From Candidatus Jorgensenbacteria bacterium GW2011_GWA1_48_11 (lineage in GTDB: Bacteria > Patescibacteriota > Minisyncoccia > UBA6257 > GWB1-50-10), in NCBI GenBank assembly GCA_001003475.1, contig LCPF01000001.1, positions 1-37,909 on the forward strand: a DNA stretch of 37,909 bases, written 5' to 3'. Position 1 is the stretch's first letter. Each line of letters begins with the position of its first letter. The notes under the pieces were generated by a model that worked only from the letters and a program-made list of their open reading frames with translations, was not told the origin of the DNA and ran no database searches. This document shows, piece by piece, positions 4,764-21,346 of this stretch. Both the position numbers and the translations under genes were made by a program.

Positions 4764-5969
4764 TTAAAATTGCGTCGTTAACTGGTAAATGGGGATGATG
4801 ATGGCCAAAGCAATGAGACCGATAATCGCGCCGATGAAAAGCAGCATCACCGGTTCCAGAAAAGAAACCAAAGTCTTCAAGGAACTGTCTATTTCGCTCG
4901 TATAAAAATCCGCGAGGGTGGCAAGTACTTCTTCGATATGGCCGGCTTTTTCAGAAATCGCCATCAGGTTCACGACGGTCTTGGGGAAAAACGGCTCTTT
5001 TTTGAAAGCCTCGCCGATCGTAAGCCCCTTGGCCAATCCTTCCTGGGAAATCCTCATGAGCGCTTCCTGCAATTCCGGATTGCCGACGGCCTGGGCCGTA
5101 ATTTCGAGTCCGGTCGTGATCGGCATGCCGGCCTTGATCAAGGACGAAAGGGTGGCGGCGAATCTCTGCAGGGCGATCTTTCTGATTACGTCTTTAATGA
5201 TTGGAATTTCGCCGACCAAACTCGAAACGAGCTTTCTGAAAATGACGGACTGGCGATAAGCGAATAAAAAACCGATCAGGGCCAATATAAATAGCCCCAG
5301 CAAATAAAAGCCGATCTGGCCGAAAAATAAGCCGACGCTGAAAACGACCCGGGAAAAAGTGGGCGGCTGGAAACCGGATTCCAAAAATACCTTGGCGATC
5401 TTGGGCAGTGCGAAAGTCACCAAAAATATCAGGATTAAAATTGACATCGCCAAAAGTAAAATCGGATAAATGAGGGCGCCTCGCGTCTGGTCCCGCAAAG
5501 CCTTCTCCTTGCTTAAAGAAGTGGTTAGGTTTTCAAAAACCGCCTCCAGATCGCCTGAGGCCTCGCCGGCCTTGATCAAATTAACGTAAACTTGGCTGAA
5601 GATTCTCGGATATTTCGCGAAGGTGGCGTAAAAGGGCTGGCCTTTTTCCAAATTGGAACGTATTTCGAGAAGCAACGATTTCATCGCCGGCTTGGCGAAA
5701 TCCTCGATCAAAATATTGATCGCTTGGAGAAGCCCCGTGCCGATCTTGAGCATCAACGCCAGATATTTGGAAAGGAAAATCTGATCGGTCAAATTGATCC
5801 GGCCCTTGAAAATGCGCAATTCGAGACGGTTCTTCTGGATCGGTTTTACGGAAACCGGCCTTAGGGCATGGGCCGTCAAAAATTGCAAAACCTCGGCAAT
5901 GTCTTTGGCGTCTATGTCTCCTTCCGCCAATTTGCCGTCGGCCTGTGAAGCGATGAAATGATACTGCAT
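4764..5969 (-). CDS. pilC: Type IV pilus inner-membrane platform protein PilC/GspF
   Basis: The 401-aa length and layout are typical of the PilC/GspF family: a cytoplasmic N-terminal part, then two T2SSF domains (about residues 65-190 and 270-395), each followed by strongly hydrophobic helices (ALIYPILLLAMSILILIFLVTFALP; IGFYLLGLFILALIGFLFAY; C-terminal LLFIGAIIGLIALAIIIP). The platform couples the assembly ATPase PilB to pilin polymerisation in the inner membrane. It lies directly after pilB. The ATG at 5969 is the last base pair of a 136-bp MITE-like element, whose terminal repeat supplies the sequence GGGTGAGGG immediately before the ATG. No other start is reasonable, since the family N-terminus (MQYHFIASQADGKL) begins here. 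Confidence 0.93.
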   Translation of the reverse strand: MQYHFIASQADGKLAEGDIDAKDIAEVLQFLTAHALRPVSVKPIQKNRLELRIFKGRINLTDQIFLSKYLALMLKIGTGLLQAINILIEDFAKPAMKSLLLEIRSNLEKGQPFYATFAKYPRIFSQVYVNLIKAGEASGDLEAVFENLTTSLSKEKALRDQTRGALIYPILLLAMSILILIFLVTFALPKIAKVFLESGFQPPTFSRVVFSVGLFFGQIGFYLLGLFILALIGFLFAYRQSVIFRKLVSSLVGEIPIIKDVIRKIALQRFAATLSSLIKAGMPITTGLEITAQAVGNPELQEALMRISQEGLAKGLTIGEAFKKEPFFPKTVVNLMAISEKAGHIEEVLATLADFYTSEIDSSLKTLVSFLEPVMLLFIGAIIGLIALAIIIPIYQLTTQF

Positions 5970-6105
5970 CCCTCACCCTTCGAAGATTACGCTTCTTATG
6001 AAGCGGTCTTCCAAGACTAACGACCGTTTATTGAATTGTTTTATCTTATTGCTAAACATGATTTTTATTGATTTGACTAAGCTTCCTATCTTCGAAGGGT
6101 GAGGG
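5970..6105. mobile_element. 136-bp MITE-like element, copy 1, inside the pilB/pilC TAATG junction
   Basis: Ends are perfect inverted repeats (CCCTCACCCTTCGAAGAT at 5970-5987, reverse complement ending at 6105). Both ends are flanked by AT (5968-5969 and 6106-6107). Removing the element and one AT restores TAATG, the stop of pilB overlapping the start of pilC. A second hairpin (GCTTCTTATGAAGC) lies just inside one end. It carries no ORF. The other copy is at 20210-20340, with conserved ends and a diverged middle. Confidence 0.8.
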
Positions 6106-6106
6106 A

Positions 6107-7825
6107 TTACTCCCGAATAACCCTGAATAACTCCTCAATGGTCGTAAGGCCCCGTTCGACTTTCTTCAACCCGTCTTCGAACATCATTGTCATGCCCTGC
6201 GAACGTCCTAATTTCACCAAATTATCCAGATTGAAATCGGGACTAATAATTAACTTTCTCACCTCCTCGGTGATGTTCAAAACCTCAAAAATGCCGATGC
6301 GGTCGAAATACCCGGTATGATTGCAGGCGGCGCAACCCCGGCCGCGATAAAAAGTCTTGGGTACTTTCAAATTGGCGGGATTCACGCCCGGATTCGCCTC
6401 CTGAAGCTGCTTATAAATGCTTTCGATCACGCCTTTTTCCGGCACGTAAGATTCGATGCAGTCCAAATGGATCCTTCTCGCCAAACGTTGGGCAGAGACG
6501 ACGTTCACGACGGCGGCCACCAAAAAAGGCGGAATGGCCATATCGATCAGCCTCGGCACGGCGGTCGGCGCGTCGGTTGTGTGAAGCGAGGAGAGGACCA
6601 GATGGCCAGTCAGGGCCGCTTGAACGGAGATGTTGGCGGTCTCGGCGTCGCGAATTTCGCCGACCATAATCACGTTCGGATCCTGCCGCAGGATCGAGCG
6701 CAGCCCGGCCGCAAAAGTGATGCCGGCCGCCACATTCACCTGCATTTGGTTCGCGTAACGCATGTCGTATTCAATCGGGTCTTCTACGGAAACGATGTTC
6801 ACCTCCGGCCGGTTCAAAATGTTCATCACGGAATAAAGCGTCGTGGTTTTGCCGGCGCCAGTCGGCCCGCAAACAAGAATCATGCCGTAAGCCTTGGCCA
6901 CCGCTTCCTGAATCATCTTTATGGTTTCATCGAACATACCCAATTCCTGGAAAGAAAGGGGTTTTTGGGCGGCCGAAAGAAGACGCATCTCAATCTTTTC
7001 GCCGTAAAAAGTCGGAATAACGGAAACGCGGATATCGATCATGTTGTCGCCGATCTTGTAGCGGAAGCGGCCGTCTTGGGGATGGGTATGCTCATCAACC
7101 CTCAAATTCGAAAGGATTTTTATTCTCGCGACGATCGCCGGGTGGATTTCTTTGGGCATGCGGATGATTTCGTGCAAAATGCCGTCCACTCGGAAACGCA
7201 CCAAAATGCCGTCGTCCAAAACCTCAAAGTGGATGTCGGAGGCCCGGGAAGAAACGGCGTAAGAAAGAAGGTTATCAACGATTGCCACGATCGGCAGTTC
7301 GGCCGCCGATTCCTCAAGGCCCTTGGCCTTGGAACGCAGCGATTCCCGGATGCTGTCTTCAATGATTTTTTTGAAATCCTGGGTCGCCTGCTTCTGATAA
7401 AGCATGAAGCCGCGGTTCAAATCATCGTCGGTCGCGAGATACGGCTTGATCGGGCCGCCCAAACGCAAAGCCAGAAAATCAATGGTCTCCAAATCGGTCG
7501 GGTCTTCCATCGCCACCCTGAAACGGCCATCCGGTTCCTTGCCGAAAACAATGGATCGCCTCTTGCGGGCGATGTCTTCGGGTAAAAGCTTCAAAGCGGT
7601 TTCGTCGATATTGATGACGCCCAGATTTATCCTTTCCGAGCCGATGTTTCGGGCGACCAAAATCAGGAAATAATCCTTGTTGATCAAGCCCTCGGAAATC
7701 AGGATGTCGATCGGGCTTTGTTTTTTACGCTGGGCCTCAACCACGACCGAATCGAAAATTTCCGGCGAAATAATGCCCGAGGTGACGAGGATTTCCTTAA
7801 GCTTGGCTGGCGGGAGCGTTATCAT
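6107..7825 (-). CDS. pilB: Type IV pilus assembly ATPase PilB/GspE
   Basis: The 572-aa protein has an N-terminal GspE-N/MshEN-like domain (about 1-160) and a AAA-type secretion ATPase core. Motifs are Walker A GPTGAGKTTTL (about 318-328), an Asp box, Walker B region VIMVGEIRDAETA (about 380-392) and a His box LSSLHTTDAPTA. It drives pilin polymerisation from the cytoplasm through PilC. The usual zinc site of two CxxC pairs is reduced: CAAC is present near the C-terminus (GRGCAACNHTGY), but the partner motif reads LDCIESY with one Cys. It is followed by pilC and preceded by the pilins. A TATAAT box ends 8 nt before the ATG. Confidence 0.95.
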   Translation of the reverse strand: MITLPPAKLKEILVTSGIISPEIFDSVVVEAQRKKQSPIDILISEGLINKDYFLILVARNIGSERINLGVINIDETALKLLPEDIARKRRSIVFGKEPDGRFRVAMEDPTDLETIDFLALRLGGPIKPYLATDDDLNRGFMLYQKQATQDFKKIIEDSIRESLRSKAKGLEESAAELPIVAIVDNLLSYAVSSRASDIHFEVLDDGILVRFRVDGILHEIIRMPKEIHPAIVARIKILSNLRVDEHTHPQDGRFRYKIGDNMIDIRVSVIPTFYGEKIEMRLLSAAQKPLSFQELGMFDETIKMIQEAVAKAYGMILVCGPTGAGKTTTLYSVMNILNRPEVNIVSVEDPIEYDMRYANQMQVNVAAGITFAAGLRSILRQDPNVIMVGEIRDAETANISVQAALTGHLVLSSLHTTDAPTAVPRLIDMAIPPFLVAAVVNVVSAQRLARRIHLDCIESYVPEKGVIESIYKQLQEANPGVNPANLKVPKTFYRGRGCAACNHTGYFDRIGIFEVLNITEEVRKLIISPDFNLDNLVKLGRSQGMTMMFEDGLKKVERGLTTIEELFRVIRE

Positions 7826-10526: not shown

Positions 10527-12014
<1,488 letters not shown>

Positions 12015-18976: not shown

Positions 18977-20209
18977 TCAAAATCTAATCACGCCTTTATC
19001 GAAATTCTCGATCAAAAGTTTCTCCATTGCTTCCTCGCCTCCCACATATTCTTTGAAAATCTCCGTCCACATGCTCTCCCGCTGGTGGTAATTGAAAGAC
19101 TCTTCCTTGCCTTCCATGAAAGAAACCAGGGACATGGCGTTGTCCTCCAAATCAAAGCTCACTACCTGCTCGTTGTTCTCGGCGCAAACGCAACCGACCC
19201 AATCAAGGCCATGCCAAAGCTTCAGGTCCAAATGCGCTTCGGGCGCTTCAAAAGTCGTGAGGTCGTGCTCGCCCCTCGCCCAATGCATTGATTCGGGATT
19301 CACCCGCGGCATGAACAAGCGCGGGTCATTGGGATTCACCTTCCAAAGATACTGCTGAACGATCAGCCACTCGCCCGGTTCAGACTTGTAGATTTCTGGC
19401 ACGTCGCCGCGCAAGAACATCTTCAGTTTTTCGGCGAAATCCGGCGCCGCTGAATAATGCCGGAATAATTTCGAATAAAATTCGATTTCGTGGAAATAAT
19501 GCAGCAGCAGGGCGAAATCCCGCAGGAATTTCCCGGGAATGTTCTCGCGGATCGGATTCAGGAAAATCACGCCGAATTCCTTGAGATGGCTCACGTTATG
19601 ATGCTTCTTGGCGACGAATTTTTCCGAAACAGTTTTCCATTCCGGCCCCAGCACTTTTATCTCGATTTCCCGATCTTCGAAATCCTTAGCCGTAAAACCG
19701 CTGTAAGCGGCTTCGAAGGTCTGGTGCATCCACTCGTCGGATTCCGTGAACCGCAAAGCGCTCATGAGCTCGGTTACGTCGTGGCGCTTCAAAGCCTCGC
19801 CGACCGTTCCTACTTTCAGGTATTTCAAAAGTTCTTCCGGTTTCCCTTTTTCCAATATTTCCGCCGCCAATTCTTTCTTTAGAAAAAAACCCGGGCCGCA
19901 CTTGGCTATTTTTTTGGCCAGCTTAGACGCTTTATCGAATTCGGTCTTGCCTGGCATCTCCTCCACGAAAGTCATCAAATGCTTTTCGTGCCCCAGGATC
20001 GTCTGCCGCAAAATGCTCCGGATGTGCGGCGCCGACCGATTGGCGCTGTTCAAAATATCCAGGGTTCGGCTCACGGTTTCGGCGTTCATGGCCGCCACTT
20101 TTTCCATGACGCCCGTCTTCCCGCCACGCTTCGCCATTTCCCGGCCCAACCCTTCGAGAAAGCCCTCGTCCACCCCCAGAATTTTCGCCAAAGAATCCAA
20201 ACCAACCAT
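18977..20209 (-). CDS. Unknown 410-aa protein
   Basis: I do not recognise the family. The N-terminal half is helical and charged (about 1-150). The middle and C-terminal part (about 170-410) is rich in aromatics, His and Trp (for example PESMHWARGEHDLTTFEAPEAHLDLKLWHG cut short, and FNYHQRESMWTEIF). There is a Cys pair (GCVCAENNEQVVSFD). No signal peptide or membrane helix is seen, so it is probably cytoplasmic. The start codon is the ATG formed at the edge of the MITE-like element (20210-20340), exactly as for pilC. It was probably co-transcribed with the PfkB kinase gene upstream before the element arrived. Confidence 0.7.
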   Translation of the reverse strand: MVGLDSLAKILGVDEGFLEGLGREMAKRGGKTGVMEKVAAMNAETVSRTLDILNSANRSAPHIRSILRQTILGHEKHLMTFVEEMPGKTEFDKASKLAKKIAKCGPGFFLKKELAAEILEKGKPEELLKYLKVGTVGEALKRHDVTELMSALRFTESDEWMHQTFEAAYSGFTAKDFEDREIEIKVLGPEWKTVSEKFVAKKHHNVSHLKEFGVIFLNPIRENIPGKFLRDFALLLHYFHEIEFYSKLFRHYSAAPDFAEKLKMFLRGDVPEIYKSEPGEWLIVQQYLWKVNPNDPRLFMPRVNPESMHWARGEHDLTTFEAPEAHLDLKLWHGLDWVGCVCAENNEQVVSFDLEDNAMSLVSFMEGKEESFNYHQRESMWTEIFKEYVGGEEAMEKLLIENFDKGVIRF

Positions 20210-20340
20210 CCCTCACCCTTCAAAGATTACGCTTCTTATGAAGCGGTCCCTGAAATTTAACGTCCTTTTCTTTAAATATTTATTTTTTGAAAACATTTTT
20301 TATTGACCTAATTAAGCTTCTTATCTTCGAAGGGTGAGGG
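20210..20340. mobile_element. 131-bp MITE-like element, copy 2, inside a TAATG junction
   Basis: Same ends as copy 1 (5970-6105): CCCTCACCCTTCAAAGAT at one end and ATCTTCGAAGGGTGAGGG at the other. It also shares GATTACGCTTCTTATGAAGC just inside. AT flanks both ends (20208-20209, 20341-20342). Removing it and one AT joins the PfkB stop and the next start as TAATG. Confidence 0.8.
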
Positions 20341-20341
20341 A

Positions 20342-21346
20342 TTAAAGCGGGTCAACGCCCAAGTCCAGGTATTTAAAACGATTTTGATTCAACTCTTTTC
20401 TCGTTAAGATCCCCTCCTGGGCGCCCACCGATTCCACGACCGAAGTGGCGTTGGCCGAGGCCAGCCGCAAAGCGAAGTTAATGTCGTGCTTAATCATGAG
20501 CCCGGCCACGAAACCCGAGCCGAAGGCGTCGCCGGCGCCGGTCCGGTCCACCAGCTTTTTTTCCTTGAAAGCCGGCGCCGTGTAAAGGTAACGGCCGTTC
20601 GAAACTTTGGCGCCCTTGGCGCCGTCCGTCATGACCGCGATCCCTTCGATCAAACCGTCGAATTTCTTGAAGATCCCCCGGTCGTTTTTGTAGGGCACGC
20701 CGGTGAGATACGACGCTTCTTCGCGGTTAACCAGGACCAAATCCAGGTATTTAAAAAGATTTTGCGGGTGCTTGGCCGCGATCTCCAAATAATATCGCGA
20801 AGGATTCATCGCGATTTTCGTGCCCCGTTTCTTCAGGGTTTTTAAAATTTCTTCCATCAAAACCAAGGGCATCTTGCCGGGCGCAATATAGGCCCAGCGG
20901 GCCTTGAGCCTTGACCAGGGAATTTCCCGCCTCGCCCAATCTTCCGAAGCGCCGCGGTAAACCAAAATCGTCCGCTCGCCATTGGGCGTCAAAAGGATGG
21001 TGGAATAGGCCGTGCCTTCCTTTTTGTCTCTTACCGCAAGCGGCGCCACTTTTTCTTTTTTTAAATGCTTGATGATGGCATCGCCCGATTCGTCGTCGCC
21101 GATCTTAAGGACCGCTGCCGTGCGGAACCCCTGGCGGCTGAAAGTCACGGCCGCATTGGCCGCGCCGCCGCCGATCGTCATGACCGGTTTTTTTACCTCG
21201 ATTTTCGAGCCCAAGGCGAAACATTCGGCTTCGCCGGTCTTAAAACCGATCTTTTCCAAATGGGCCTGATCGCGCAAAACCTTGAAAAGCGGGCTCGTTA
21301 GAAAGACGTCCCGCGTTACCGTACCGATCGTAATAACATCGAACAT
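20342..21346 (-). CDS. PfkB/ribokinase-family carbohydrate kinase
   Basis: The 334-aa protein has both PfkB signatures: GGGAANAAVTFSRQGF (about residues 59-74) and DRTGAGDAFGSGFVAGLM (about 267-284) with the catalytic Asp of GAGDAF. NREEASYLTG (about 206-215) is the usual NxxE-type metal/phosphate motif. Such enzymes phosphorylate sugars or nucleosides with ATP. The substrate cannot be read from sequence; ribokinase, adenosine kinase-like or fructokinase-like activity is possible. The promoter is close to consensus and the -10 ends 7 nt before the ATG. Confidence 0.88.
   Translation of the reverse strand: MFDVITIGTVTRDVFLTSPLFKVLRDQAHLEKIGFKTGEAECFALGSKIEVKKPVMTIGGGAANAAVTFSRQGFRTAAVLKIGDDESGDAIIKHLKKEKVAPLAVRDKKEGTAYSTILLTPNGERTILVYRGASEDWARREIPWSRLKARWAYIAPGKMPLVLMEEILKTLKKRGTKIAMNPSRYYLEIAAKHPQNLFKYLDLVLVNREEASYLTGVPYKNDRGIFKKFDGLIEGIAVMTDGAKGAKVSNGRYLYTAPAFKEKKLVDRTGAGDAFGSGFVAGLMIKHDINFALRLASANATSVVESVGAQEGILTRKELNQNRFKYLDLGVDPL

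Follow-up and report, generated by a model that had tools for sequence, protein, structure and literature searches.

In the window, by which we mean the whole 37,909-nt stretch of DNA analysed here, a pilB-like gene (T2SSE; 6107-7825) and a pilC-like gene (T2SSF; 4764-5969) lie in tandem on the minus strand, separated by a 136-nt element at 5970..6105 (minus strand; copy 1) that was delimited by an end search and by the complementarity of its arms. Read along the minus strand, the junction runs pilB...GAG TAA, T, element (6105 to 5970), ATG pilC: the pilB-like stop codon TAA occupies 6107..6109, a single T at 6106 separates it from the element, and the pilC-like start codon lies at 5967..5969. 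The left (upstream) terminal inverted repeat, CCCTCACCCTTCGAAGAT (6088..6105), matches the right (downstream) one, ATCTTCGAAGGGTGAGGG (5970..5987), which abuts the pilC ATG, perfectly over 18 bp; counting the flanking AT extends each arm to 20 nt (5968-5987 and 6088-6107), with 100% complementarity. A mini-ORF of 28 codons, MFSNKIKQFNKRSLVLEDRFIRSVIFEG followed by a stop (5973..6059, minus strand), is the remnant of a GIY-YIG ORF, and its TGA falls within the right repeat, 3 nt ahead of the pilC ATG. The element thus sits exactly at the stop/start junction, as the initial annotation of this DNA had it, and both neighbours keep their full frames; with whole genes on either side, the insert is harmless by position.

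A dispersed repeat between stop and start codons

When the 18-mer ends were searched for with up to 3 mismatches, the window gave 4 matches against 0.07 expected, and the 691-kb genome to which it belongs (8 contigs) gave 31, while a reversed control pattern gave none. These make up 16 copies in the genome: 14 of ~131-138 nt, one diverged copy of ~105 nt and one 66-nt hairpin. The second copy in the window, found by the same search, is a 131-nt element at 20210..20340 (minus strand), placed as copy 1 is, with a pfkB-family kinase gene (20342-21346) on one side and a 410-aa ORF (18977-20209) on the other, and it carries the mini-ORF MFSKNKYLKKRTLNFRDRFIRSVIFEG, with its stop, at 20213..20296 (minus strand). 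Multiple copies, a length of ~134 nt and 18-bp inverted ends are what one expects of a miniature inverted-repeat transposable element (MITE), and the initial description of the repeat as MITE-like and mobile in type stands. The 66-nt derivative (contig 2, 63743-63808) retains only the hairpin with the same ends and does not adjoin a start codon.

Fifteen of the 16 genome copies lie directly 5' of the ATG of a long frame, and their internal orientation is the same throughout. Thirteen of these begin exactly 1 nt past a TAA or TAG, which for 12 of them is the stop codon of an upstream ORF 66 aa or longer. In L011 the gene's own TAG stop comes 4 nt earlier, followed by TAAT, and at two loci (L016, L017) TAAC or TAAT is found at the usual place although no upstream gene ends there. 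Counting all distinct copies of the family, 37 of 50 adjoin the ATG of an ORF 50 aa or longer, so that the position first noted at pilB/pilC is a rule of the family. The filled junctions include rpoB/rpoC, rplR/rpsE, rpmF/nusB, pilB/pilT and pilT/pilC (names other than those of the pil genes are our reading of the translations), and the genes downstream have no function in common. Repeats with CCCTCACCC from Sphingomonas and Parvibaculum were set aside, as most are flanked by GTCC...GGAC and no copy lies against an ATG; the loci from Sphingomonas, Parvibaculum and Phyllobacterium (L239-L326) comprise many intergenic repeats with the same CCCTCACCCTT core, often flanked by GTCC...GGAC and never at start codons, and are probably an unrelated family.

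As a candidate target-site duplication, the flanks show AT in most copies, AC in several and a 5-bp ATGNN in others, so that its length varies between copies (2 or 5 bp). The initial annotation took TAATG to be the sequence present at pilB/pilC before insertion. That junction can be read in 28 relatives from the host's family, with spacers of 1-380 nt; none of the 28 has TAATG and the nearest (L378) has TAATATG, leaving TAATG an inference. At other junctions, species without the insert show a single ATG behind a short spacer of the usual kind: this holds for rpsE in G028/G029 (located with a partly approximate S5 query, 75% identical to its own gene) and for rpsC, rplX and secY in G036 versus G037. 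In the latter pair, the spacing is 1 nt at filled junctions and 4-15 nt at their insert-free counterparts (rpsC, rplX and one further gene). These comparisons cross species and the spacers differ, so the TAAT class may have arisen by a clean 2-bp duplication at TAATG, by insertion between TAAT and ATG, or by loss of spacer. The simplest reading of the TAA-T copies would be TA^AT^G with duplication of AT, with which the palindromic site TTAAT[element]ATTAA (L092) agrees best. Three loci (L302, L318, L092) follow a stop codon or TTAAT and do not precede an ATG (TAGT[element]ATTAA, TTAAT[element]ATTAA), some of them apparently between convergent genes.

GIY-YIG nuclease genes framed by inverted repeats

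Ends of the window's family occur in 14 of 244 genomes of the order. Two element-bearing contigs deposited as 'Nanoarchaeota archaeon' (JAUYPG01; L265, L317) agree in size with contigs of G040, a member of the window's bacterial family, and probably come from a mislabelled assembly. In relatives of ~290 bp with the same ends, a single protein is encoded, a GIY-YIG nuclease of ~85 aa; examples are L072 (88 aa), L134 (87 aa), the outer copy in G043 and contig ends in G053. The L072 protein is MFFHVYLLRSKLDNSFYIGFAEDLKERMEKHNKGMVQSTKNLRPMELIYFESYKSKRDALIREKRLKQFAKGFSSLKSRLFDSLMLEG, and its TGA sits in the right repeat. Pfam assigns the GIY-YIG domain with E-values of 3e-16 and 9e-15, and PF01541 scores of 59.9, 55.2 and 60.1 bits compare with a curated cut-off of 22.6. 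Short copies retain the first codon or codons and the last ~18 codons of the nuclease ORF, which makes them internal-deletion derivatives, as MITEs are of a transposon; aligned by eye, the mini-ORF C-terminus KGTLIFKDRFKRSVIFEG corresponds to the nuclease C-terminus KGFASLKSRLRNSLMLEG, each followed by its stop. The full-length relatives found code only for the GIY-YIG nuclease, so derivation from a transposase-coding element, a further mark of a MITE, was not seen. One element was found inside another, between TGAT and ATG. No full-length copy of the window's own family was found in the window's genome.

A different end sequence, CCCGTTAGA, marks a second family, found in 77 of the 244 genomes of the order and, in a phylum-wide sample of 380, in 26. 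Six of its short copies and one full-length copy lie in the window's genome, the latter at the fmt start codon (contig 1, 41844) and encoding MNPVRGNQFYYIYVLRS...LPLTG followed by a stop; the genome has no other full-length copy of this design. In this family the upstream flank repeats the start of the downstream gene, as in ATGAA-T[element]ATGAA, ATGGA-T[element]ATGGA and ATGAG-T[element]ATGAG. An exact 5-nt ATGNN duplication is present in 28 of 44 copies, against a mean of 13.6 and a maximum of 20 when flanks are shuffled, and some members of the window's family have it too. We considered whether the upstream ATGAAT merely provides a TGA stop and rejected this, as ATGGA and ATGAG are duplicated as well. 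The ORF within the element often begins at the captured host ATG (MNPVR.., MDPVR.., MSPVR..). At G367 (contig 2, 123993-124108), a CCCGTTAGA...TCTAACGGG pair surrounds an apparent tRNA gene, not an element interior.

Several different end sequences frame small GIY-YIG genes in the order: inverted repeats scoring at least 12 surround the ORF at 19 of 26 GIY-YIG loci, and at none of 102 control placements. Another GIY-YIG family, with ACCCCGCACC ends (L123, L136, L137, L139, L141, L147, L155), is often flanked by TTG/GTCA and TGAC/CAA, not ATG. Of the GIY-YIG elements with other ends, one adjoins a tRNA gene at its 5' end (L138, element 1059-1345, tRNA 988-1060) and two lie directly 5' of AGGAAAGTCCGGAC (L154, 1474-1765; L158, 1475-1765), which resembles RNase P RNA, without Rfam confirmation. 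Other subfamilies may therefore target other conserved sites.

The mini-ORF and translation in the host

A mini-ORF was counted as ending at the host start if it opens with ATG, has at least 20 codons and stops at -12 to +1 relative to the host ATG. Among short copies, 28 of 32 in the window's family carry one (median 28 codons), versus 8% when the interior is dinucleotide-shuffled, and 29 of 42 in the CCCGTTAGA family versus 14%; the copies are related, and the counts are hence not independent events. Of 13 aligned copies in the window's genome, 11 have an ATG-to-TGA distance of 81, 84 or 87 nt; the other two are out of phase, and one of these uses an alternative in-frame ATG. The stretch ahead of the mini-ORF, by contrast, varies by single bases (26, 27 or 28 nt). 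We read this retention of multiples of three beside single-base variation as selection for a frame that ends beside the downstream start. Against this, variability, though lowest at codon position 2, is as high at position 1 as at position 3.

The 16S rRNA gene in the window (10527-12013, minus strand, 3' end at 10527; Rfam) terminates in GGATCTATTAAATT and lacks the anti-Shine-Dalgarno sequence CACCTCCTTT, and Shine-Dalgarno-like tetramers occur 5' of gene starts at background frequency (6 of 85 vs. 6.7%). It is thus unlikely that GGGTGAGGG, which the element end supplies before the new ATG, acts as a ribosome-binding site, as the initial annotation might suggest. In a host without such signals, re-initiation by a nearby ribosome that has just terminated would be the likely route to the downstream gene.

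The copy 1 hairpin is predicted to be stable (z -5.9), and its arms could pair in mRNA. Mismatches between the arms are G-U in 16 cases and A-C in 13 in the window's family, and 6 vs. 24, the opposite trend, in the CCCGTTAGA family. Without an excess of G-U, the repeats look like the ends of a DNA element, not like a maintained RNA stem, and with a double change in just 2 of 26 predicted pairs, we did not retain a structured cis-regulatory RNA. The 16S rRNA was the sole match in an Rfam scan of the window; for elements of 131-136 nt with no Rfam match, neither a self-splicing intron nor membership of a known RNA family is supported.

Origin of the elements and relation to known systems

We think it probable that the repeat is an internally deleted, non-autonomous member of a Patescibacteria class of GIY-YIG elements that has start codons as its targets and provides a translational bridge within the operon. 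The full-length form consists of ~290 bp, with terminal inverted repeats around one ORF of ~85 aa; its nuclease would cut at start codons and drive insertion, and deleted copies would be mobilised by it in trans. In a host lacking Shine-Dalgarno signals, the mini-ORF would convey ribosomes over the insert, allowing re-initiation at the downstream gene, and this bridging would make insertion into essential operons (rpoB/rpoC, rplR/rpsE, pilB/pilC) tolerable.

Terminal inverted repeats, a short duplication and small size are also what a conventional MITE would display, derived from an insertion sequence of the DDE or HUH type whose transposase resides elsewhere or was lost, with the GIY-YIG ORF as cargo or coincidence, and the window's genome indeed has no full-length copy of the window's family. 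However, GIY-YIG is the sole ORF between matching ends of the ~290-bp forms across several unrelated repeat families, with the difference from control placements given above, and ~290 bp leave no space for a transposase, which makes this origin unlikely. We give still less credence to a non-mobile cis-regulatory RNA module, a leader hairpin with a leader peptide that controls downstream translation and has spread by duplication. It would explain why place and orientation before the ATG are invariant, why the copy 1 hairpin is stable and why the mini-ORF is conserved, but the arm mismatches, the silence of Rfam and the unrelated downstream genes argue against it, as do the nested copy, the nuclease-coding full-length versions and the relatives whose junctions have no insert.

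The initial annotation left open whether the element chooses this junction or only survives there. Random insertion, with survivors restricted to the spaces between genes of compact genomes, is improbable as the whole account. Gene-disrupting copies would indeed be lost, and a few intergenic copies lack an ATG (L070, L089, L107), yet a -1 overlap occurs at only 7 of 85 ordinary co-directional junctions in this genome while 13 of the 16 copies lie 1 nt past a stop, and ATGNN is duplicated above the shuffled expectation. Because TAAT or TAAC is present even where no gene ends (L016, L017), targeting appears to be at least partly by DNA sequence, and a survivor effect on top of it is likely.

Our favoured explanation, a nuclease-coding element and its deletion derivatives, has partial parallels in known systems. 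The free-standing GIY-YIG homing endonuclease genes segA-segG of phage T4 also stand alone between other genes and are tolerated by the host genome (PMC2988022). They occupy defined single loci (PMC2988022), whereas the elements described here are framed by terminal inverted repeats, can reach tens of copies in one genome, scattered among unrelated genes, and have deletion derivatives that lack the nuclease. MITEs are likewise short, bounded by inverted repeats, multicopy and derived by internal deletion of a coding element. Here, by contrast, the parent's only gene encodes a GIY-YIG nuclease and not a transposase, the position is at start codons in one orientation, and an in-frame mini-ORF is kept. 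The nearest solved structures by sequence are small GIY-YIG proteins of the UPF0213/YhbQ type (BH0048 and EF2693; PDB 1zg2 and 1ywl; E 1e-4 and 3e-3), which are of the same size; their PDB entries give no sign of a mobile context, whereas the element gene is framed by inverted repeats. LAGLIDADG-coding insertions in rRNA genes of the CPR (PMC11270868) are also small nuclease-coding mobile insertions in the same host radiation, but they are intron-like and lie in rRNA genes (PMC11270868), while the present elements lie at protein start codons, mostly without a body of intron size. A literature search, with preprints and most subscription papers outside its coverage, returned no description of GIY-YIG elements bounded by inverted repeats at start codons, and we regard their novelty as provisional.

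The observation is larger than the initial annotation conceived, which missed the GIY-YIG nuclease origin and the conserved mini-ORF, and its most interesting part is the combination of a nuclease-only parent with a translational bridge. The chances seem to us about even that this is a class of transposable element not described before, whose autonomous form might rank with the smallest: ~290 bp with one ~85-aa GIY-YIG nuclease and no transposase. Such an element would target start codons, re-create the host ATG, in some families start its own ORF at the captured ATG, and be harmless through a bridge ORF kept even in non-autonomous copies. If so, many of the small genes annotated as 'GIY-YIG nuclease family' in Patescibacteria genomes would be mobile elements, and a GIY-YIG nuclease alone may be able to mobilise DNA with inverted-repeat ends. 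The elements would also illustrate by what means a gene-dense genome that lacks Shine-Dalgarno signals can tolerate tens of insertions in essential operons, and the many operon junctions that carry or lack an element in these genomes provide a natural test of translational bridging.
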